From a bacterium (GTDB lineage Bacteria > SM23-31): 64,000 nt of DNA. The notes under the pieces are model-generated. The model saw only the letters and a list, made by a program, of their open reading frames with translations. It searched no databases and was not told where the DNA came from. The first letter of the stretch is position 1; the number at the start of each line of letters is the position of its first letter. The stretch lies in NCBI GenBank assembly GCA_028278455.1, contig JANQEH010000166.1:1-64000 (forward strand), written 5' to 3'. Shown here in pieces: positions 51,232-64,000 of the stretch. The position numbers and the translations under genes were made by a program.

Positions 51232-52599
51232 CCAGATTTTGTCTTGATTAATATTGATGACCTAATATGGACGGAAATTGCCTGTTTCGGCAGTAGTTAT
51301 TACGAGACGCCAAATATTGATAAACTTGCTTCACAGGGGATGAAGTTCACTAACGCATATTCATCATGCGCTGTCTGTTCTCCGACAAAAGCCTCAATAA
51401 TGACAGGCAGGTATCCTTGACGAACAGTTATAACAGACTGGATGAGGGCGGAATTCCGATACAGTTCAGCAGAAGAATACATGCCTGATGACAAAACATT
51501 CCGGGGTGGTTATGTTGGTCGGGCAGAAAGGAAGTTTCTTGCACCACGTAATCCTCTCTGGAAGGAATTGGTTGAAGTAACGATAGCGGAAGTCCATAAG
51601 CCCGCTGGATATACATCATGCCACATAGGAAAATTACATCTCGGGGCAGAAGACCGGTACCCGGAAAAGCAGGGATCTGATTATAATTACGGCGGCTGCT
51701 ATTTTGGTCAGCCGCCAACCTATTTTGATCCTTATATCAATAACATAGACGACGCAGGGGATATTCCCACACTGAGATCGAGACAACCGCGAGAATACCT
51801 GTCGGACAGAGAAGCAGATGAAGCCTGCAGGTTTATCAGGGATCACAAAGACAGCCGTTCTTTCTGCATATGGCACATTATGACGTTCATACTCCCCTCG
51901 AAGGAAAAAAGATCATGTGGTAAAATATGAAGCTGGAAAAAGTGGAACAGGGCTGGGTAATGCAGTGTATGCCGCAATGGTGGAAAGTGTCGATCAAGAG
52001 GTAGGGAAAATAATGGATACCCTTACAGAACTTGGCCTTGACCATAAGACAATGGTAAACTTTACATCGGATAACAGGGGATTAAAAGGGTATTCTACCG
52101 ATAATTCCCCTATACGATCTGGAAAAGTCTGTCCTTGCGAAGGTGGTATATGAATTCCCCAGATCATCCGTTGGTGCGGCTTGATAGATCACAGCACTGT
52201 TTGTGATGAGCCGGTATTCAGTATTGATTTTCTTCCAACAATATGCGATGCATCAGTTACTCCCCTTCCACAGGGACGCGAAGTAGACGGTAAAAGCCTT
52301 ATTCCGTTAATTGAACAGCAAGATGGTTTTATTAGAGATGCTATTTTCTGGCATTTTCGCATTACTAAGTTGAAGATGTTGTACCATACAGTATTATTCG
52401 AATGGGAGACTGGAAACTTATAAAAAGGTATGAAGGAAAAGAGTTTGAACTTTATAACCTTAAAGATGACTTGAGTGAGATTACAGATCTTTCAAGCGGC
52501 TTTCCTGAAAAGGTAGATGAACTTGATACAAAGCTGAATCTTCTCCTGCTGGAGACCGGTGCTAAATTACCAATCGAGAATCCCGATTTCGGGAAATAA
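51232..52599 (+). pseudogene. Decayed arylsulfatase-like gene (multiple stops and frameshifts)
   Basis: Collinear fragments in different frames: [151 protein letters not shown]. Confidence 0.88.
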
Positions 52600-52778: not shown

Positions 52779-53705
52779 ATGGAAATTAAAATAGAAAATC
52801 TTGAGAAGGAATATAAAAGGGGAACGAGGGCCCTCAAAGGTGTCAATCTTGTAATCGAAAGCGGTCTTTTCGGTCTGTTAGGTCCTAATGGCGCAGGTAA
52901 ATCAACTCTTATGAAGATACTTGTTACTCTAATGGAGCCCACAAAAGGAAAAGTCTTCATCAACGGTATGGATCTGATGAAAAACAGGGCTGAAATAAGG
53001 AAAATGATCGGATATCTGCCGCAGCATTTCAACTCTTTTCCGAAATTGAAGGCATGGGAATTTCTCGATTACTCTGCGCGTCTTGCTGATATTAAAAAAT
53101 CCTCTAATAGAAAGGAAGCGATTGAAAAAACCCTCGAAATGGTTGGATTATATGATGCCAGAAACAGGTATGCAAACAAGCTTTCCGGGGGTATGAAAAG
53201 AAGGCTTGGTATAGCACAGGCGCTTATAGGTGAACCTGAGATTCTTGTGATCGATGAGCCGACGACCGGCCTTGATCCGATGGAGAGGCTTCGCTTCCGG
53301 AATTTGCTGGCGAAAATGAGTCAGAATGATATTATAATCATACTCTCGACACATATAGTCGGGGATATTTCCAGTTCTTGTTCCAGTATGGCTCTGCTAA
53401 ACAGGGGAGAAATGGTATACAGCGATACTCCGGAAAGCCTTATCAAGGAGGCAATTGGCAATGTTTGGCAGATAAGGGCAAATGACCGTGAGCTGAATTC
53501 TATAAAAGAGCAGTACCCGGTTATTTCAACGGTTCCTTCCGATAATGGCTGGGAGGTACAGGTAGTAGGAAGTGAGATGACGCAGTTTGACGGTGAACCT
53601 ATTGAACCGGATCTGGAGCATGCTTATGTGTATTTTTTGAAAAGTCATCTTGGTGAATTCTGGATAGATAACATCAATATGGAAGAAATAATAACTCCAA
53701 ATTAA
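52779..53705 (+). CDS. ABC transporter ATP-binding protein
   Basis: GLLGPNGAGKSTLMKILVTL Walker A; KLSGGMKRRLGIAQALIGEPEILVIDEPTTGLDP signature and Walker B. Confidence 0.95.
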   Translation: MEIKIENLEKEYKRGTRALKGVNLVIESGLFGLLGPNGAGKSTLMKILVTLMEPTKGKVFINGMDLMKNRAEIRKMIGYLPQHFNSFPKLKAWEFLDYSARLADIKKSSNRKEAIEKTLEMVGLYDARNRYANKLSGGMKRRLGIAQALIGEPEILVIDEPTTGLDPMERLRFRNLLAKMSQNDIIIILSTHIVGDISSSCSSMALLNRGEMVYSDTPESLIKEAIGNVWQIRANDRELNSIKEQYPVISTVPSDNGWEVQVVGSEMTQFDGEPIEPDLEHAYVYFLKSHLGEFWIDNINMEEIITPN

Positions 53706-53709
53706 AGGA

Positions 53710-56700
53710 ATGAGGATAGGGATGTCCACACTGAAAACCATATATAATTTAGCCAGATTCGAGATGACTTCGATCTTCAGAAGCTGGCTTTTCAGGATAT
53801 TTTCAGTCCTTATGATAATTGCTGTCACTTTTTTAGATATGTCACTTTTTGTGATCCCCGCTTCTTCCCGCTGGATGTTTTACGGTATTCCTTCGAGTAT
53901 ACCGTATTTCAATATGCTGTTTCTTAATCTTGTACAGGGAATTATAATAATTCTCATGGTAACGGATTTTCTGAAAAAGGATGAATCTCTCGACACAACG
54001 GAGGTCGTTTATATAAAATCCCTAACAAATGCTCAATACGTAATTGGGAAGACCGCCGCGATTTTTAATATGATCATGTTGCTTGATCTGATAGTCCTGT
54101 TGATTGCAGGTGTATTTAACTATTTCTTTGTGGATGTTCCAGTTGTATTTGATGCATATATATTATATCCCCTTTTAATCAATGTCCCCACGGTGATTTT
54201 TATAATAGGCCTGACTATTTCGACGATGCTGGTCCTGAAAAATCAGGCGGCTGCTTTTATTATTGTTATTGGATACTGTGCTACAACATTATTTTTCCTT
54301 GAAGATGTAATGTATAACGTTTTCGATTATGCCGCTTTTACTGCTCCTGTCCTGATCTCGGATTTTGTTGGAGCCGGAGATCTTCATCGGATAATATTAC
54401 AGAGAAGCATATACTTTTTTACCGGGACCGGAATGATCTTTCTTTCAGTCCTGCTTTTTAAGCGTCTTTCGCAATCACGCCTGACAACTATCCTTTCATT
54501 TATAGTAATGGCTGCGGCATTTACCGGAGCATTATTTTCGGCTAATAATTACTTCGGTATTTTTGAGGAAGGAGTTGAACTCAGAAAAAGGATGCAGGAA
54601 AAAAGTCATCAGGTTTTAAATTTGCCATTGCCTGAACCTGTGAAATACAATATAGACCTGGAGCATAGCGGGAAAGAAATAATTGTGAAAGCCGGAATAA
54701 TATTAAAAAATAATTCGGAAGAAAATCTCGATAAATATGTTTTAAGCCTTAATCCAGGAATGAAAATCAGCAAGATCAGCGGAAAAAACTCTGACCTGGA
54801 TTTTATAAGAGAAATAAATCTTCTGACCATTATTCCCGAAAGACCGTTATTACCCGGAGAGACAGACTCTTTATCAATAACTTATGGCGGAATGATAAAT
54901 GAAGATGCATGCTATCCCGGGATTGATGAGCAGTTCAGGAATCAAAAATACAGCATGTTCTTATACAATATAGAAAAAAGGTATGGTTTTATTACACCTG
55001 AATATGTTCTCCTGACAGGTGAATGCAACTGGTATCCCGTTCCCCCTGAGATCATCTCTACAACAGAAATTGTATCTTCTGAGCAGTTCTACCCGGAGGT
55101 GTTATTGAATGTCAAAACTGCAGAAGGCCTCCTGCCCATTTCACAGGGAGAAGTTACTAAAATCAGTGATTCTGAGTTCAGCTTCCGGCCGGAGACGCCT
55201 GTAAACGGAATTTCTCTGATAATAGGGAATTATAAACAACTGACATTAACCGTAGAGGAAATAGACTTCAATCTTTATTATCTTAAAGGTCATGATTATT
55301 TCATGAAATACCTCGAGGCAGGGATCGATGATATTCCAGGAAGACTGGAAAGCTCTATAAGGAGATTTGAAAATTCCCTTGGGCTTGAGTATCCATATAA
55401 AAGACTGTCTGTAATAGAAACACCTATCCAGTTCTACGCATATTCACATTTTACTTCCATTCGATCTGAGGCGGTACAGCCTGAACAGATCTTACTGCCG
55501 GAAAAGGGTGTGCTGTTATCTTCATGCGACTTCAAAACACAGAGCTATGCCATCGCGAACAGGCCTCAGAGAGGCGGAATGAGACGCGAAATGACACCAG
55601 AGGATATATCCGGGATGCTGTTCAACAGTTTTATCAGCAGTACTTTCCTGGGCAGTGCGGATATGTTCCAGAGGATGAGGGGGATGATAGCTCGAACTCA
55701 AGGTGAAGATCAACTCTCATTTCAGGATATTTCTTTACTCGCTGAAACAGATGATTCTGGTAACTATTCGATACTGCCTCTTTATTATTCTTACTCAACA
55801 CATTTTTCATCAGATAGATGGCCTCTTTTTAATGCAGTGATCGAATCATACTTAAACAGAAAGATAGAGAGCAGCCAGGGCATGCGCGGCAGAATGATGA
55901 TGATGATGGAAGGTTTGAGCGACCAGGACAAGGCAAACATCGCATTGATCGAAGATCCCCTGTCTGCACTTTTAGAGGATCCGACCAATCCGAATGCGGG
56001 GAATGCACTGGAGCAGAAGAGCACATATCTGGTCTATTTGATGCAAAGCGGAACAGATTCAGAGACATTTGAAAATTTCCTGACGGATTATCTTACAGAA
56101 AATAGATTTTCAGATATAGAGGTAGACGAATTTCTGGAAGTTTTAAAGGCGAATTTCGATCTTAACCTGTCTGAATATTTTGATGCCTGGTTATATGAAG
56201 AGGAAGTTCCTGTTTATCAGGTGAACGACCTTGAGTGTTTTGAGATAATAGAAGAAAACCAGACGAAATACCAGATACTTTTCACCGTATCGAATTTAGG
56301 AAACACAAGTGGGATTTTTGAGGTCAGTTTCCGAGCCGGGGGTAGAGGATTTGGCAGGGGAAGAGCTGGTGGCGGAGCCAGGGGAGGAGGCGGAATGCCG
56401 GGAGGCAGAGGAGGATTCTTTGAGCCGGAGTTCGAGAAGATATACTATCTGGAGGCCGGTGAGACAAAGAGCATTGGAGTACTACTTAACAGCAGGCCGC
56501 TCGGTATGGCCCTGAATACACTGGTTTCGAGTAATCTACCCGCAGTAATGAATTACAATTTTCAGGAGGTTGTCAAAAATTTAGATCTGAAATCCTATGA
56601 GGGTGAAATGATTATTTCCAATGTCGATCCATTAAGTTCATCTGAAATGGTTATAGTCGATAATGAAGATAACGGATTCAGAATAAATGAGCAGGTCAAA

Positions 56701-57210
56701 AAGGGATTCCTGAACAGGATCTTCGGAGATAGCGAAGAAAACAGCACCAGATATGTCGGGCTGAATATATTTGATCCTCCAGGAAAGTGGCAAGCTGCTG
56801 TCTCGGATAACTATTTTGGAAATATCAGGAAAAGCGCACATTATATTAAATCAGGATCCGGGGAAAACAAAGTGTCCTGGACTGCAGAAATACCTAAAAA
56901 CGGCACTTATGATGTTCTGTATTATGTGTCGCCTGTAATGGGAAGAAGAGGAATGGGACGCGGCAGAGGCGGTCAGTCCGGAGGAGGCGGAGACAGGCAG
57001 AGAGAAAGTTTAATAAGTGATTTTCATTTTGTGATCCATCATGACGACGGCAGCAGGGAGGTTACAATGGAGATTGATAAGTTCGAACCCGGCTGGAATA
57101 TGATGGGATCGTTCTATTTTTCGAAAGGTGATGCCCGAGTTGAATTAACGGATGAATCGGGCGGCAGGATTGTGTATGCGGATGCCGTGAAGTGGCAGAT
57201 CGTAAAATAA
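53710..57210 (+). CDS. ABC-2 type permease fused to a degenerate M1 aminopeptidase-like domain and a C-terminal golvesin/CBD-like domain
   Basis: N-terminal TM region typical of ABC-2 permeases; large M1-like exodomain without HExxH; Gly/Arg-rich linker; C-terminal WTAEIPKNGTYDVLYYV...FHFVIHHDDGSREVTMEIDKFEPGWNMMGSFYFSKGDARVELTDESGGRIVYADAVKW. Confidence 0.75.
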   Translation: MRIGMSTLKTIYNLARFEMTSIFRSWLFRIFSVLMIIAVTFLDMSLFVIPASSRWMFYGIPSSIPYFNMLFLNLVQGIIIILMVTDFLKKDESLDTTEVVYIKSLTNAQYVIGKTAAIFNMIMLLDLIVLLIAGVFNYFFVDVPVVFDAYILYPLLINVPTVIFIIGLTISTMLVLKNQAAAFIIVIGYCATTLFFLEDVMYNVFDYAAFTAPVLISDFVGAGDLHRIILQRSIYFFTGTGMIFLSVLLFKRLSQSRLTTILSFIVMAAAFTGALFSANNYFGIFEEGVELRKRMQEKSHQVLNLPLPEPVKYNIDLEHSGKEIIVKAGIILKNNSEENLDKYVLSLNPGMKISKISGKNSDLDFIREINLLTIIPERPLLPGETDSLSITYGGMINEDACYPGIDEQFRNQKYSMFLYNIEKRYGFITPEYVLLTGECNWYPVPPEIISTTEIVSSEQFYPEVLLNVKTAEGLLPISQGEVTKISDSEFSFRPETPVNGISLIIGNYKQLTLTVEEIDFNLYYLKGHDYFMKYLEAGIDDIPGRLESSIRRFENSLGLEYPYKRLSVIETPIQFYAYSHFTSIRSEAVQPEQILLPEKGVLLSSCDFKTQSYAIANRPQRGGMRREMTPEDISGMLFNSFISSTFLGSADMFQRMRGMIARTQGEDQLSFQDISLLAETDDSGNYSILPLYYSYSTHFSSDRWPLFNAVIESYLNRKIESSQGMRGRMMMMMEGLSDQDKANIALIEDPLSALLEDPTNPNAGNALEQKSTYLVYLMQSGTDSETFENFLTDYLTENRFSDIEVDEFLEVLKANFDLNLSEYFDAWLYEEEVPVYQVNDLECFEIIEENQTKYQILFTVSNLGNTSGIFEVSFRAGGRGFGRGRAGGGARGGGGMPGGRGGFFEPEFEKIYYLEAGETKSIGVLLNSRPLGMALNTLVSSNLPAVMNYNFQEVVKNLDLKSYEGEMIISNVDPLSSSEMVIVDNEDNGFRINEQVKKGFLNRIFGDSEENSTRYVGLNIFDPPGKWQAAVSDNYFGNIRKSAHYIKSGSGENKVSWTAEIPKNGTYDVLYYVSPVMGRRGMGRGRGGQSGGGGDRQRESLISDFHFVIHHDDGSREVTMEIDKFEPGWNMMGSFYFSKGDARVELTDESGGRIVYADAVKWQIVK

Positions 57211-57241: not shown

Positions 57242-58717
57242 ATGCAGCATAATTTAAATCTTTCAAAAAAGATAATCCAGATTTTTATAATTTTCTCTTT
57301 ATTTGCAGCATTTAGGGAAAACTGTGAAGCTCAGCTTAACCTGAATCTCGTTGAAGCACAAAAGCTGGCAACTGAGAACAGTCCTGATATTAAAAGGATC
57401 GGTTATGACATGGAACGCAATAGCGAACTCTTAAAAGCGAGGCTTGCTGCTAATAAATCGAACTTCAGCCTGAGTCTGAATCCTTTAAGCTACAGCGAGA
57501 ACCTTACTTTCAATTCTTTTCTATCGGCCTGGAGCGAGAATGAAACTAAAGAATCATTCGGTACTTTCCGAATATCACAACCGATCGAAAAAACCGGCGG
57601 TACGCTTTCCCTTATAAACAGGTTTTCATGGCAGGATTCATACAGCGATTACCAGGATATAAGGAATAAACAATTCTCAAATAACCTGTATCTGAGTTTT
57701 ACACAGCCGATCTGGACTTACAATACTATTACTCTCGAGACGAGGCAGCTCGAGCTGAACCTCGAGCAGACGGAACTTAATTATTCCATACAGAAGCTTC
57801 TGCTTGAAAAGCAGGTCGCGCAGAGTTTTTACAGTGCCTATGAGTATAAAATGAGCCTCGAGATCGCACTCGAAGAACAAAAAAACCAGGAAGCAAGCTA
57901 TCAGCTGATAAAGAACAAGGTTGATGCAGATCTTGCGGCAAGAGAAGAACTTTACCAGGCAGAATTGAATCTTTCTTCGAGCAATTCCACTGCAGCTAAT
58001 GCTCAGGTTCAACTTGAAAATGCATATGATGACCTTAAGATCCTGTTGGGATTGGCCTTGAATGATGATATAGCTGTTGAAGCTGATCTCTCATACCGGG
58101 ATGTTGAAGTGGACCTGAGCAAAGCAATTTCGTACGGCCTCGATAAGAGGATGGAACTGAGGCAGAGAGAGATCGATATCCAGAATGCACAGATGGACCT
58201 AACTGAAACGGAAGCTCAGAATGAATTCAAAGGACAGGTATTACTTGATGTCGGTTTAATAGGGACAGATGAAAACCTGGGAAATATTTATGATACACCT
58301 ACCCAGAACAAGACCGTCTCGCTGTCTGTAGAGATACCTCTGTGGGACTGGGGAGAGACGGCTTCCAGGATAAAGGCTGCTGAAGCTGATATCAAAAAGG
58401 GACAGCTCTCATATGATGATGAGGTAAACAGTATAGTCCTCGAAATAAGAAAAAGTTACAGGAATCTTTCAAACTTGAGAAACCAGATAGTTATAGCGGA
58501 ACAGAATGTCCGCAATGCTGAGTTGACATATGAGATCAACAGGGAGAAGTATGAGTATGGTGACCTGACGAGTATGGACCTTTCACTTTACCAGACACAG
58601 CTATCTCAGAAGAGGATAGATCTGGTGTCTGCCCAGGTAGATTATAAACTTGCTCTGCTCGATCTAAAGATCCAGTCACTCTGGGATTTTGAAAAGAATG
58701 AACCGGTGATAAAATAA
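57242..58717 (+). CDS. TolC-family outer membrane efflux protein
   Basis: Signal peptide, paired long helical repeats (NLNLVEAQKLATENSPDIKRIGYDMERNSELLKA...; SVEIPLWDWGETASRIKAAEADIKKGQLSYDDEVNSIVLEIRKSYRNL). Confidence 0.9.
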   Translation: MQHNLNLSKKIIQIFIIFSLFAAFRENCEAQLNLNLVEAQKLATENSPDIKRIGYDMERNSELLKARLAANKSNFSLSLNPLSYSENLTFNSFLSAWSENETKESFGTFRISQPIEKTGGTLSLINRFSWQDSYSDYQDIRNKQFSNNLYLSFTQPIWTYNTITLETRQLELNLEQTELNYSIQKLLLEKQVAQSFYSAYEYKMSLEIALEEQKNQEASYQLIKNKVDADLAAREELYQAELNLSSSNSTAANAQVQLENAYDDLKILLGLALNDDIAVEADLSYRDVEVDLSKAISYGLDKRMELRQREIDIQNAQMDLTETEAQNEFKGQVLLDVGLIGTDENLGNIYDTPTQNKTVSLSVEIPLWDWGETASRIKAAEADIKKGQLSYDDEVNSIVLEIRKSYRNLSNLRNQIVIAEQNVRNAELTYEINREKYEYGDLTSMDLSLYQTQLSQKRIDLVSAQVDYKLALLDLKIQSLWDFEKNEPVIK

Positions 58718-58755: not shown

Positions 58756-59865
58756 TTGAGGAATAGAAAAATGTACAGGGACCAGATAACTATCAGAAGA
58801 ATAATCGCTGGAAAAAGAATGAGCTTAATACTCGGACTTCTTTTTCTTTTCTGCGGATCTCCCGAAAGTTATGTTGAATCGGTTGTTGAGATACCTGTTG
58901 AAGTTGAAGAGGTAAAGCTTAGCTCCATCGAGGAATTTGTTGTGGCGACAGGGACAGTAAATGCTTCAAAAGAGGCAATACTGTATACCGAATCCGACGG
59001 TTATTACAGAAAAGGGATCAATCCCCGGACCTCAAAGCCTTATGCGATCGGTGACAGGATAAAAAAGGATGAGATCATAATTTACACGGATAATCCTGAG
59101 AAAGTTAATTCAATAAAGATCGATTACTATAAACTTAGCCTTGAGAATGCCCGGAGGGAGTACGAGAAACAGAAATCCCTGTATGATAAAGGCGGTGTTA
59201 CGCTTAGCGAGCTGAGCAGCGCCGAGCGGACCAGAATGGACGCGGAATACAGCTATGAAAACGCTGAGATACAGCTCGAGAAGCTTAAAGTTACTGCTCC
59301 CTTTGACGGTGTTATCGTGGATATACCATATTACACTGAGAGTGTCAAGATCGCAACAAATGTTGAAGTTGTCCATCTTCTTGATTTTAATTCCCTGAAT
59401 ATGGAAGTAAACCTTCCCGATAAGCTTCTTAGCACTATCAAGGTAGGTCAGAATGTAAGGATCATGAATTATAAAACACCGGATATGAGAGTCGATGCAG
59501 CAATTACACAGGTGTCTCCTGCTCTGAATCCCGACACGAGAACCTTTAAAGCTTCACTGATTATCAGGAATACTGACTGGCAGTTAAGACCGGGAATGTT
59601 CGTTAAGGCCGAGATAATAACAGCAAGGAAAGACGATGTTGTAGTAATTCCTAAAGAGATCATCACTGTCCGCAGCGACAGAAAGACTGTTTTTATTATC
59701 AACCAGGGATTTGCCCGTGAAAGAAGGATTAGAATTGGGCTGGAAAATCCTGATGAGGCTGAGGTGACAGATGGACTTTCAGAAAACGACAGGATAGTTA
59801 TAAAGGGATACGAGACTCTCAGAACCGGATCAAAAGTTAAAGTATCTCAGAATCAGGGAAAATAA
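58756..59865 (+). CDS. RND efflux periplasmic adaptor (membrane fusion protein)
   Basis: VATGTVNASKEAILYTESDGYY...LEKLKVTAPFDGVIVDIPYYTESVKIATNVEVVHLLDFNSLNMEVNLPDKLL...LRPGMFVKAEII. Confidence 0.92.
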   Translation: MRNRKMYRDQITIRRIIAGKRMSLILGLLFLFCGSPESYVESVVEIPVEVEEVKLSSIEEFVVATGTVNASKEAILYTESDGYYRKGINPRTSKPYAIGDRIKKDEIIIYTDNPEKVNSIKIDYYKLSLENARREYEKQKSLYDKGGVTLSELSSAERTRMDAEYSYENAEIQLEKLKVTAPFDGVIVDIPYYTESVKIATNVEVVHLLDFNSLNMEVNLPDKLLSTIKVGQNVRIMNYKTPDMRVDAAITQVSPALNPDTRTFKASLIIRNTDWQLRPGMFVKAEIITARKDDVVVIPKEIITVRSDRKTVFIINQGFARERRIRIGLENPDEAEVTDGLSENDRIVIKGYETLRTGSKVKVSQNQGK

Positions 59866-59893: not shown

Positions 59894-62800
59894 ATGAGAA
59901 AAGTAGTACATTTCGCAGTCAACTTTCCGGTAACGATATCAATGCTTGTGCTTGGAGTTATACTTCTTGGGATTATTTCATTCCAAAAACTCGGTATGGA
60001 TCTCTTTCCGGAATTGAATAATCCTAGAATATACATCGAACTGGAAGCAGGTGAGAGCACTCCGGAAGAACTGGAAAAGCTGTATGTAGAAAACATCGAG
60101 GCGCAGGCAATACGCCAGAAAAATGCTGTACAGGTCTCATCCATACTCAGCGTGGGTTCGGCATTGACTACCGTTGAGTTTGCATGGGAATCTGACATGG
60201 ATGAGGCATTTCTCGATATACAGAAGGCAATGTCGAATATCAAACAGAGTGACGGAGTGGATGACCTGATTATTTCGCAGCAGGATCCTAACGCTGATCC
60301 TGTATTGGTTATGGGATTCCTTCATCCCGCGATATCGGATATGGATGAACTGAGGAGGATAGCTGAGTCGAGGATAAGAGATAGACTGATACGGCTGGAA
60401 GGGATAGCCGATGTCAGGCTTTTGGGACAGGAAGAAAAGGAAATATCAATTGAGACCGATCCCTATACACTTGAAGCATTTTCATTGACACCGTCTGATA
60501 TAACAAGCAAAATCACGAGCTATAACAGGAACATATCCGGCGGTACACTTGAAGAAATGGGGACAAAATACATAATCAAAGGAGTAAGTGAATTAGGATC
60601 AATAACCGATCTCGGTCAGATCGTTCTGGTGAATAAGCAGATCACTACAGGTGAAAGCAGCATAAATACTGCCGGAAACACAGAAGATGTACTGGTTTAC
60701 CTCCGGGACGTTGCCGAGATAAGAATGGTCAACAAGGAACCTGAGAGCATAGTAAGGCTGAACGGTGTGAGGTGTATTGCTGTAGCGGCTTATAAAGAAA
60801 CAAAATTCAACACTGTCCAGGTTGTAGATGATTTTCTCGGTTTACTTGAAGATATTAGAAATGAAATGCCGGGATTCGAGCTTCCGATTATCCAGAACAA
60901 AGGTGAATTCATAACATCATCAATAGAGGAAGTACAGCAGACATTGCTGATCGGTATCCTTCTGGCAGTAATAATACTCTTCGTCTTCCTGCGCCGGATC
61001 GGGACTACTGCAATTATAAGCGTAGCTATCCCTGTCTCAATTATTGCAACATTCAATCTTATGTATTTCAACGGCCTTACCCTGAATATCATGACACTTG
61101 GCGGGCTTGCCCTGGGTGCAGGAATGCTTGTGGATAACGCAATTGTCGTTATGGAAAATATATTCAGGAATATTGAAGAAGGGATGAGTCTGAAAGAAGC
61201 TATTTTGACCGGGACCGACCAGGTAGCCGGCGCTATTACAGCATCAACGGTTACAACTATAATCGTCTTTCTGCCTATTGTTTATCTACACGGCTCAAGT
61301 GGGGAGTTATTCAAAGACCAGGCTTGGACGGTAACATTCTCTCTGCTTTCATCACTTCTGGTCGCTATCCTGGTTATACCGATGCTTAGCGTCAAAATAC
61401 TATCCGACAAGAAAACTGATAAATATACAATGGAAACGATCAGGTTTCCACGTTATGAGGGATTTCTAAAGAAAGTCCTGAGATATAAATACTATGTAAT
61501 TATGGCCGCTGCCGGACTCATCGCGGGTGCAGTATACATGGTACCGGTTATAGGAAGCGAGTTTGTTCCCAAATCAGATACTAACGAATTTACCGTAGAT
61601 ATCAAACTGCCCGAAGGTACTGAACTTAACAGGACTGCGGGTACGGTCTCCGGAATTGAGGAAAGCATTCTTTCGCTGTTCGGTAATGATATCTCATCAT
61701 ATTACAGTATTTCAGGGCCCACATCCGAACTTAGCGGGGTGTCATCTTCAGTATTTCAGGATGAAAACACTGCGACATTGAATTTTCTATTTAAAAGTGA
61801 ATTCAAAATACCATCCGATACGGTTTTCTCAATGATAGACCGAGTATTGTCTGAAATACCGGAATTGGAATTCAATATATACCAGGAACAGACTACTCTT
61901 GAACTTACACTGGGTGATGAGACCGAACCTTTAGTTATTGAGATCCAGGGTGAAGATCTTGAAGTGATCCGGGACCTTACTGAAATAATAAAGACAGATC
62001 TTTCAGGGTATAAAGAACTCTACAATATAAAATCGAGTTTTGATGAAGGCAGGCCTGAAATAGATATTGTAATAGATCCGGTAATAGCTGGAATTTATAA
62101 TATCAGCGTTGATGCAATCATTTCCGATCTGCAGAGTATGCTCATAGGAAATGAGACCGGGAAGATCGAGACGGACGGAGAACTTTTAGACATGACGGTT
62201 AGGCTGCCGAAACTGAGCGTGAGTGACCTGGAAGACGTATCGATCGGGAACGCAGGCTCGAATATCAGCCTTTATTCGATCGCTGATATAGAAATCAAAA
62301 GGGCGCCTGCCGCTATTTACAGAAATGATCAGGTTAGAGTTGGAAAACTCTCGTCAAATCTAACCAGTGAGACTCCTCTTGACAGGTTAGTTGAAAGGAT
62401 AAAGAACACACTGGAAGGTATTACATTTCCACCGGACTACAAGTACGAGATCACCGGTGAGGAAAAGCAAAGACAGGAAGCGTTTGACAACCTTAGTTTT
62501 GCATTGATCCTTTCCCTTGTTCTTGTCTACATGGTGCTTGCTTCCCAGTTTGAATCTCTTGTTCACCCGTTTACGGTGATACTCTCAATCCCGCTGGCGA
62601 TAGTCGGGGCTGTGTTCATCTTCTTTTTTCTCGGCAGGTCGTTGAATATAATGGCGTTCATAGGTATAATCATGCTTGTCGGTATAGCAGTTAATGATTC
62701 GATTATTTTAGTTGATGCTATCAATCAGCTCAAGAGAAAGGGAATGTCCCGTGCAGAAGCTATTATTCTGGCTGGGCAGAGGAGGATCCGGCCAATTGTA

Positions 62801-63013
62801 ATGACAAGTCTGACTACAATTCTCGCCCTGACACCGCTAACACTGGGAATGGGAGAGGGAGCTTCATTAAGAGCTCCAATGGCCATAGCGGTGATTGGAG
62901 GATTATTTACAGCAACGTTATTGACCCTGGTCGTTATCCCCTGTGTTTATTCTGTAATGGACGGATTGACAGGGGATCCAGCGAAAAGCAGAACAGAACG
63001 GGAGACCGGATAA
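59894..63013 (+). CDS. RND-family efflux transporter (AcrB/HAE1-like)
   Basis: LGMDLFPELNNPRIYIELEAGESTPEELE; GGLALGAGMLVDNAIVVMENIFRN; MLVGIAVNDSIILVDAINQLKRKGMSRAEAIILAGQRRIRPIVMTSLTTILALTPL. Confidence 0.95.
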   Translation: MRKVVHFAVNFPVTISMLVLGVILLGIISFQKLGMDLFPELNNPRIYIELEAGESTPEELEKLYVENIEAQAIRQKNAVQVSSILSVGSALTTVEFAWESDMDEAFLDIQKAMSNIKQSDGVDDLIISQQDPNADPVLVMGFLHPAISDMDELRRIAESRIRDRLIRLEGIADVRLLGQEEKEISIETDPYTLEAFSLTPSDITSKITSYNRNISGGTLEEMGTKYIIKGVSELGSITDLGQIVLVNKQITTGESSINTAGNTEDVLVYLRDVAEIRMVNKEPESIVRLNGVRCIAVAAYKETKFNTVQVVDDFLGLLEDIRNEMPGFELPIIQNKGEFITSSIEEVQQTLLIGILLAVIILFVFLRRIGTTAIISVAIPVSIIATFNLMYFNGLTLNIMTLGGLALGAGMLVDNAIVVMENIFRNIEEGMSLKEAILTGTDQVAGAITASTVTTIIVFLPIVYLHGSSGELFKDQAWTVTFSLLSSLLVAILVIPMLSVKILSDKKTDKYTMETIRFPRYEGFLKKVLRYKYYVIMAAAGLIAGAVYMVPVIGSEFVPKSDTNEFTVDIKLPEGTELNRTAGTVSGIEESILSLFGNDISSYYSISGPTSELSGVSSSVFQDENTATLNFLFKSEFKIPSDTVFSMIDRVLSEIPELEFNIYQEQTTLELTLGDETEPLVIEIQGEDLEVIRDLTEIIKTDLSGYKELYNIKSSFDEGRPEIDIVIDPVIAGIYNISVDAIISDLQSMLIGNETGKIETDGELLDMTVRLPKLSVSDLEDVSIGNAGSNISLYSIADIEIKRAPAAIYRNDQVRVGKLSSNLTSETPLDRLVERIKNTLEGITFPPDYKYEITGEEKQRQEAFDNLSFALILSLVLVYMVLASQFESLVHPFTVILSIPLAIVGAVFIFFFLGRSLNIMAFIGIIMLVGIAVNDSIILVDAINQLKRKGMSRAEAIILAGQRRIRPIVMTSLTTILALTPLTLGMGEGASLRAPMAIAVIGGLFTATLLTLVVIPCVYSVMDGLTGDPAKSRTERETG

Positions 63014-63029
63014 TCATCCGGAAAATTAT

Positions 63030-64000
63030 ATGAGTTTTATAAGAATCGTAATCAGGAGAAAAACTCTCGTCAGCATGCTTTTTATCGGGCTGTCAATGCT
63101 GGGATACCTGTCCTACAAACAGCTCCCTATGGAACTGATGCCTAATGTCGAGTATCCTTATCTTATTGTCCGTGTCTCAGGTTCCGGTGAAATGGATCCT
63201 GAATATATCGAAGAGACAGCAGTAATCCCTGTTGAAGGTGTTATCGCTACCATGGAGAAAGTCAGCAGTATCGAAGCAAGCATAAACAGAAGACGGGGTA
63301 CGATCTATGTCTATTTCGATCAGGGTGCGGATATTGAATATACCTATCTGAAGCTTCAGGAAAAACTCTCCAGCCTGAGCACGGATATTACGGATGAATT
63401 TTCCATCAATGTAGATAAGGTAGATACTGAACGGCTTTCGAATACATTCATGAGGCTGCAGGTAAGGGGAAGCGGCGGACTGGAACGTGTCAGGGCGGTT
63501 ATAGACAAATCCATCAGGAACGATCTTGAATACATCGAAGGTGTTGCCACGGTCGAGATAGTCGGCGGGCAGGAGAAGGTACTCGAGATCAGGCTGAATG
63601 ATGAAGCAACTGAATCTTACGGAATCACGCCATCTAATATAAGTAATTTAATAAGAAGAAATAATAATGACAGGACATTCGTCGGTTTTGCATATGAAAA
63701 AGACAGGCACTATTTTGTCAACGTAGTAGCAGAATATGAAAACGTTACCGATGTCGAGAATATTATTGTCGATCCCTCGGGCCCGGTATTCTTGAAGGAT
63801 ATGGCGGAGATATATTTCGGAGTCAAGGAGCAGGAATCTATTAGCAGGGTAAACGGGATGGATGCTGTTACGATTCAGCTTGTGAGGGATGCAAATGTAA
63901 ATCTTATTGAATTGTCCCAAGTCACGAGGGACATTATTGGTAAACTGAACAGGGATTTAAGATACCAGGATGTAGAGATAGTAATCCAGACCGATGAAGC
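63030..64000 (+). CDS. Second RND-family efflux transporter, N-terminal part (runs off window)
   Basis: Open frame absent from the ORF track: MSFIRIVIRRKTLVSMLFIGLSMLGYLSYKQLPMELMPNVEYPYLIVRVSGSGEMDPEYIEETAVIPVEGVIATMEK... Confidence 0.9.
   Translation, partial: MSFIRIVIRRKTLVSMLFIGLSMLGYLSYKQLPMELMPNVEYPYLIVRVSGSGEMDPEYIEETAVIPVEGVIATMEKVSSIEASINRRRGTIYVYFDQGADIEYTYLKLQEKLSSLSTDITDEFSINVDKVDTERLSNTFMRLQVRGSGGLERVRAVIDKSIRNDLEYIEGVATVEIVGGQEKVLEIRLNDEATESYGITPSNISNLIRRNNNDRTFVGFAYEKDRHYFVNVVAEYENVTDVENIIVDPSGPVFLKDMAEIYFGVKEQESISRVNGMDAVTIQLVRDANVNLIELSQVTRDIIGKLNRDLRYQDVEIVIQTDE

Follow-up and report, generated by a model that had tools for sequence, protein, structure and literature searches.

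The permease TMD1, which carries a predicted inactivated peptidase domain, belongs to a seven-gene export operon located mostly within the stretch of DNA analysed here (the window, 64,000 nucleotides), and the content and order of this operon are shown, by comparison of related loci, to be conserved. The seven genes encode a stand-alone ABC ATPase (NBD1), TMD1, a TolC-type outer-membrane factor, a membrane fusion protein (MFP), an RND permease (RND1), a second RND permease covalently joined to a second ABC ATPase (RND2::NBD2), and a small permease (TMD2). An operon with such a covalent fusion is more surprising than the inactivated peptidase itself, to which the earlier note on this DNA had drawn attention. 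Judged by its relatives, the pseudo-M1 permease is a conserved multi-phylum family and not a single oddity.

The pseudo-M1 permease and its family

The gene and its parts are as follows.

53710..57210, forward strand: TMD1, ABC-2-like permease, pseudo-M1 and golvesin protein, 1166 aa
53710..54612, forward strand: membrane domain of TMD1, residues 1-301, an amphipathic helix and seven TM helices (AlphaFold)
54634..56199, forward strand: pseudo-M1 region, residues ~309-830, beta saddle at 309-525 and helical catalytic-like part at 532-830
56338..56415, forward strand: Gly/Arg loop 1, in the Ig-like domain (residues 836-950), disordered
56647..57207, forward strand: golvesin C-terminal domain, residues about 980-1166, PF25275 E=4.6e-15
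56941..56994, forward strand: Gly/Arg loop 2, in the golvesin domain, disordered

TMD1 is encoded in a single open frame with an ATG start. In the full-length AlphaFold model (pLDDT 84.4, pTM 0.83, from a 58-row alignment), whose domain names are our reading of its secondary structure, an amphipathic helix is followed by seven TM helices ending at residue 301 (26-48, 63-93, 107-140, 147-176, 179-195, 225-249 and 257-301), the beta-saddle, the helical part, the Ig-like domain and, from residue 980 to 1166, the golvesin domain; residues 300-965 modelled separately gave a pLDDT of 86.5 and a pTM of 0.86. As the model has seven TM helices, the soluble head is predicted to lie on the periplasmic side. 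The earlier description of the protein as an ABC-2 permease is upheld as far as a membrane part is concerned and stays tentative for the ABC-2 identity: the Pfam scan returned no ABC-2 match for TMD1 of the window, and ABC2_membrane_2 and ABC2_membrane_4 came just below cut-off in one relative (L041). Pfam matched no FtsX or MacB_PCD permease domain in TMD1 either, and all curated NCBIfam models fell short of their cut-offs with TMD1, with the RND2::NBD2 fusion and with the 242-aa TMD2.

The M1-aminopeptidase fold of the head (beta saddle and thermolysin-like domain), proposed beforehand from the sequence alone, is confirmed by the agreement of the AlphaFold model, Foldseek and profile-profile comparison. 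In particular, M1 aminopeptidases rank first among PDB structures for full-length TMD1 (8cgp, E=3.7e-17), and the head alone matches M1 enzymes at E=4.4e-23, with TM-scores of only ~0.5, ~10% identity and domains that are possibly shifted. Profile-profile comparison (hhalign) with eight active M1 proteins gave 97.6-98.2% probability over residues 258-936, and a profile search of PDB sequences matched M1 peptidases at profile positions 703-825. The Pfam match to Peptidase_M1 (PF01433) is weak and under the gathering score (E=0.0062, residues 769-827), and in a viral fold library only giant-virus M1 and M61 matches were noteworthy. With IRAP, ERAP1, PepN and the cold-active aminopeptidase 3cia the fold is common over ~660 residues (Foldseek prob 1.00), as are a conserved Lys and the C-terminal helical part; TMD1 differs from these enzymes in lacking the HExxH...E ligands and GAMEN and in being joined to a seven-TM permease and a golvesin domain.

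The missing zinc motif, noticed earlier in this one protein, turned out to be a property of the family. The HExxH(x18)E site is absent from TMD1 of the window, where the whole protein was scanned for HExxH, and no HExxH is found in the catalytic region of any of 80 relatives from several phyla; HExxH-type strings occur elsewhere, HESLH in one relative and HDKLH in another, far upstream at about residues 380-410. The equivalent helix reads MLFNSFISSTF, with FNSFIS at about 638-643, and in 58 relatives columns 638-646 hold, in turn, F/L, N/K/R, R/N/D, F, V/I, two mixed positions, T/N/F and F/L. The HHalign register of this helix is ambiguous (about 638-646 or 646-651), and zinc ligands are found in neither. 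At the GAMEN position the window protein has AVQP (residues 588-591), and xVQP replaces GAMEN in the relatives, Q590 being present in 54/58 and P591 nearly invariant, in a register taken from the alignment only. A non-canonical site was also looked for: at columns 530-980 of the 58-relative alignment no column has His in even 30% of the relatives, so that no alternative zinc site is evident. Since HExxH is missing family-wide, the loss of the peptidase is not recent and dates back at least to the root of the sampled family. On the strength of alignment and model, the head is a clear case of an inactivated M1 peptidase fold kept by selection, across phyla, after the loss of catalysis. The earlier suggestion of an inactivated peptidase reused as a binding module is therefore borne out in its first half, and the reuse is plausible as a putative role.

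Fusions of ABC-2 permeases with active M1 domains exist in public annotation, with the same order of permease and then M1 domain. TMD1 differs from them: every relative found has an inactive peptidase, the protein carries a golvesin domain as well, and RND, MFP and TolC genes lie in the operon. Eight long ORFs with M1 domains, taken from other phyla as a possible active ABC-2/M1 comparison, all have HExxH, but they were rejected because none is a multi-TM permease fusion.

The golvesin-like C-terminal domain was likewise borne out. Golvesin_C (PF25275) scored 56.3 bits in the window protein against a gathering cut-off of 31.6 bits, the cut-off was also passed in 8/8 relatives scanned, xanthan lyase 6f2p was matched by this domain in a profile search of PDB sequences, and the invariant residues W1057, W1129, D1158 and A1159 are retained. 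The two Gly/Arg-rich stretches, present where the earlier note had placed them, cover roughly residues 877-902 and 1078-1095, and pLDDT falls below 50 at residues 879-906 and 1080-1096, covering both. Relatives share the place of these stretches and not their composition; Gly+Arg content there varies from 0 to over 50%, and the stretches were set aside as a functional motif. By alignment and model they are lineage-variable disordered loop insertions, not a defining feature.

A scan with the single protein gave no matches among the contigs, and a nine-row family profile was used instead, which returned 252 relatives of TMD1, of which 80 were kept. These are open, full-length or contig-cut, 27-42% identical, and share dozens of nearly invariant columns. 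They lie in records titled Bacteroidota (Bacteroidales, Cytophagales), Latescibacterota, KSB1, Calditrichaeota, Krumholzibacteriia, Fibrobacteres, Chlorobiota and Glassbacteria, a spread read from record titles, which for MAGs are not independent taxonomy. In the window's own phylum relatives are found in 5/6 genomes of the collection, several of them multi-copy. TMD1 and the operon occur in culturable bacteria, among them Butyricimonas and Odoribacter, which are commensals of the gut, and the marine genera Carboxylicivirga and Fulvivirga; no match to TMD1 was found by tblastn in plasmid sequences. Rfam found nothing in the window.

The operon and its RND-ABC ATPase fusion

The other genes of the operon are the following.

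52779..53705, forward strand: NBD1, stand-alone ABC ATPase, 308 aa, DrrA/GldA-like (Pfam ABC_tran 1.3e-32)
57242..58717, forward strand: TolC-type outer-membrane factor (Pfam OEP 1.5e-43), in the same place in relatives
58756..59865, forward strand: MFP, periplasmic adaptor (Pfam HlyD_D23 9.7e-17)
59894..63013, forward strand: RND1 permease (ACR_tran 3.9e-209)
63030..64000, forward strand: start of the RND2::NBD2 fusion, 1579 aa (RND, ~six TM and ABC ATPase), which ends at contig position 67769
contig 67778-68506, beyond the window: TMD2, 242-aa permease, kept in 27/27 genomes

From NBD1 through TMD2 the intergenic gaps are 4, 31, 38, 28, 16 and 8 bases. The order NBD1 - TMD1 - TolC - MFP - RND was found in 54/80 loci; most of the remaining 26 end at a contig edge, and a few have other or intervening ORFs. 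RND, MFP and TolC genes stand together in the TMD1 locus, as in a tripartite RND efflux pump. The ABC ATPase motif set (Walker A, signature, Walker B, H-loop) is present in both NBD1 and the fused NBD2; for NBD1, signature and H-loop are found in all 74 relatives examined, Walker A in 72 and Walker B in 71. The TM4 motif GMLVDNAI of RND1, with the D407 equivalent, is matched in 50/57 relatives, and a crude lipobox pattern fits the MFP in 48/66.

The fusion protein consists of ACR_tran at residues 3-1024 (E=2.3e-150), about six hydrophobic segments at 1038-1255 and ABC_tran at 1296-1440 (E=1.8e-28). Conserved over several phyla, it is present in 27/27 genomes checked via family loci, 25 of which show it as an uninterrupted frame of 1480 aa or more, and on these grounds it is not an artefact. 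Walker A, Q-loop, signature, Walker B and H-loop of NBD2 are intact in all 26 aligned sequences (window genome included), the D407 equivalent of RND2 is retained in the aligned fusion sequences, and over 270 residues NBD1 and NBD2 share 44% identity, in keeping with two halves of one heterodimer. Two fusion genes in MAGs (L164; L172/L173) are broken or split, and that of G004:C190 is split into two overlapping frames of 1237 and 348 aa, which may reflect assembly error or real fission. TMD2, named by its position, follows the fusion in 27/27 genomes; its product shows four or more hydrophobic segments and is matched by no Pfam family. A literature search in a PMC library found no description of an RND-ABC fusion or of a golvesin/ABC or M1/ABC arrangement, an absence that is not proof of novelty.

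TMD1 and the fusion also tend to occur together. Among 386 genomes across Bacteria the TMD1 family is matched in 9, the fusion in 9 and both in 8. In an 82-genome phylum (that of G325), TMD1 is found in 43 genomes, the fusion in 41 and both in 39, with 4 and 2 single-gene cases, respectively, and neither gene in 37 (Fisher p=4e-16). All six genomes that hold only one of the two genes are draft MAGs with 78-91% completeness, and 15/16 families with either gene have the other. The pairwise distances of the two proteins correlate in a mirror-tree comparison (rho 0.83; 0/2000 permutations as high); shared ancestry inflates this statistic and that of co-occurrence. As the presence of the two genes varies in step within families, their agreement is not only shared ancestry.

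More distant versions of the locus were also observed. There is a second, more distant subtype, with a fusion identity of 31-37%; a divergent operon (G195:C72, 23-54% identity) has the same order for the first six genes. The NBD1-permease-TolC-MFP-RND order is also kept in G004, from a family that is distant within the phylum (L024:1-9747, L206:4995-9733); the same genome holds three lone pseudo-M1/golvesin permeases with no ABC ATPase or RND gene adjacent (L025:2613-5906, L026:6340-9648, L027:15421-18717), so that the pseudo-M1 head may also work apart from the operon. Elsewhere in the window genome, MFP, RND1, a fusion 36% identical and TMD2 lie on contig C288 with no adjoining NBD1, TMD1 or TolC (L202:8229-17951), and a paralogous NBD1-TMD1 pair lies at the end of contig C117, beside genes with LemA and TPM domains by Pfam (L029:1-4730). 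Upstream of the operon, a short ORF of 162 aa (51442-51930) matches a sulfatase weakly and in part (Pfam 0.0096) and is probably a sulfatase remnant.

A proposed hybrid exporter and its alternatives

With slightly better than even confidence, the operon is read as encoding a hybrid of two exporters, an ABC-2 heterodimer and an RND-MFP-TolC pump tethered to each other, with the dead peptidase serving as periplasmic substrate or hand-off head. TMD1 would be the large membrane subunit of this seven-gene exporter; NBD1 and NBD2 would pair, as would TMD1 and TMD2, to form a heterodimeric ABC-2-type exporter, while RND1 and RND2 would form a mixed RND pump, like MdtB and MdtC, docked on MFP and TolC. 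With NBD2 and RND2 in one chain, the pump driven by ATP and the one driven by protons would be held in a single assembly. The ABC part would bring the substrate to the periplasmic face, where the pseudo-M1/golvesin head, without hydrolysing peptides, may bind it or guide it into the RND-MFP-TolC channel. An envelope lipid, a glycan, a peptide or a natural product are all possible substrates. In about 15 Bacteroidales loci (e.g. L077:2367-6968) the operon adjoins, in divergent orientation, an HD-domain gene and lpxD-lpxC/fabZ-lpxA of lipid A synthesis, and downstream of it in the window genome lie LPG_synthase_TM, glycosyltransferase 2, PMT_2 and PAP2 genes (L144:8954-13461), which relatives do not share. 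These neighbourhoods hint at envelope lipids or glycans; no conserved neighbour beyond the seven genes that could serve as a substrate clue is general among the family loci.

The head could instead be a structural or mechanical element, like the periplasmic domain of MacB, which would pass ATP-driven movement to MFP/TolC or RND without binding a substrate. This is considered unlikely, at a level that still deserves attention: the fold was kept though all catalytic ligands were lost, co-occurrence with MFP, TolC and RND genes is strict, and conserved residues are scattered over the head, whereas in xanthan lyase Golvesin_C serves as a domain of the binding type, and the tryptophans and the Asp-Ala pair kept in it fit ligand binding at least as well. 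Rather improbable is the notion that the ABC-2 exporter works independently of the RND pump and is merely co-transcribed with it for the same stress or substrate, with no joint complex. The type II locus G000:C288, which lacks an adjacent NBD1-permease pair, and such a pair on the separate contig G000:C117, which may or may not belong to that locus, would agree with this notion. Against it, NBD2 resembles NBD1 and in almost every genome checked forms one protein with RND2, which makes an ABC ATPase inseparable from an RND subunit, and the genes are spaced by 4-38 bases throughout. That the head is still a peptidase, through an unusual metal site or another mechanism, is very improbable: the M1-like fold is complete and the acidic residues E554, E570 and E598 are invariant, but a conserved His is missing from residues 530-980 and both GAMEN and HExxH are replaced throughout. 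Decay of a pseudogene-like domain in one lineage, for which no supporting point was found, is refuted by the conservation of 80 open relatives from several phyla and has next to no probability.

Known exporters and the meaning of the fusion

The proposed hybrid exporter shares parts with several known systems. As in MdtABC-TolC, two different RND permeases stand in tandem with one MFP, and RND1 matches the MdtC and MdtB models below their cut-offs; the likeness is one of gene order, and a single RND1/RND2 trimer is putative. The operon departs from MdtABC-TolC in that RND2 carries ~six extra TM helices and an ABC ATPase and that ABC-2-like permeases are included. With MacAB-TolC and other ABC tripartite exporters (reviewed in PMC8277102) it shares the ABC ATPase, MFP, TolC and a large periplasmic permease head, whereas its permease is ABC-2-like and not of the FtsX/MacB type, and RND subunits are present, one of them fused to an ATPase. 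DrrA and GldA, of GldA/DrrA-type ABC exporters, are the nearest models of NBD1 and NBD2, with scores far under the model cut-offs, and NBD2 differs in being fused to an RND permease.

Taken more broadly, and with rather less than even confidence, the family may represent a multi-phylum exporter class in which one assembly would run on both ATP and the proton gradient through an RND-ABC ATPase polypeptide, with the dead M1 domain as periplasmic substrate receptor. For the tripartite pumps of Gram-negative bacteria, the same review lists ABC, RND and MFS transporters as distinct energiser families (PMC8277102). This division is blurred by an RND subunit that carries a functional-looking ABC ATPase and is encoded beside a second ATPase and a permease with a dead peptidase, and the fusion operon makes dual energisation by ATP and protons directly testable.
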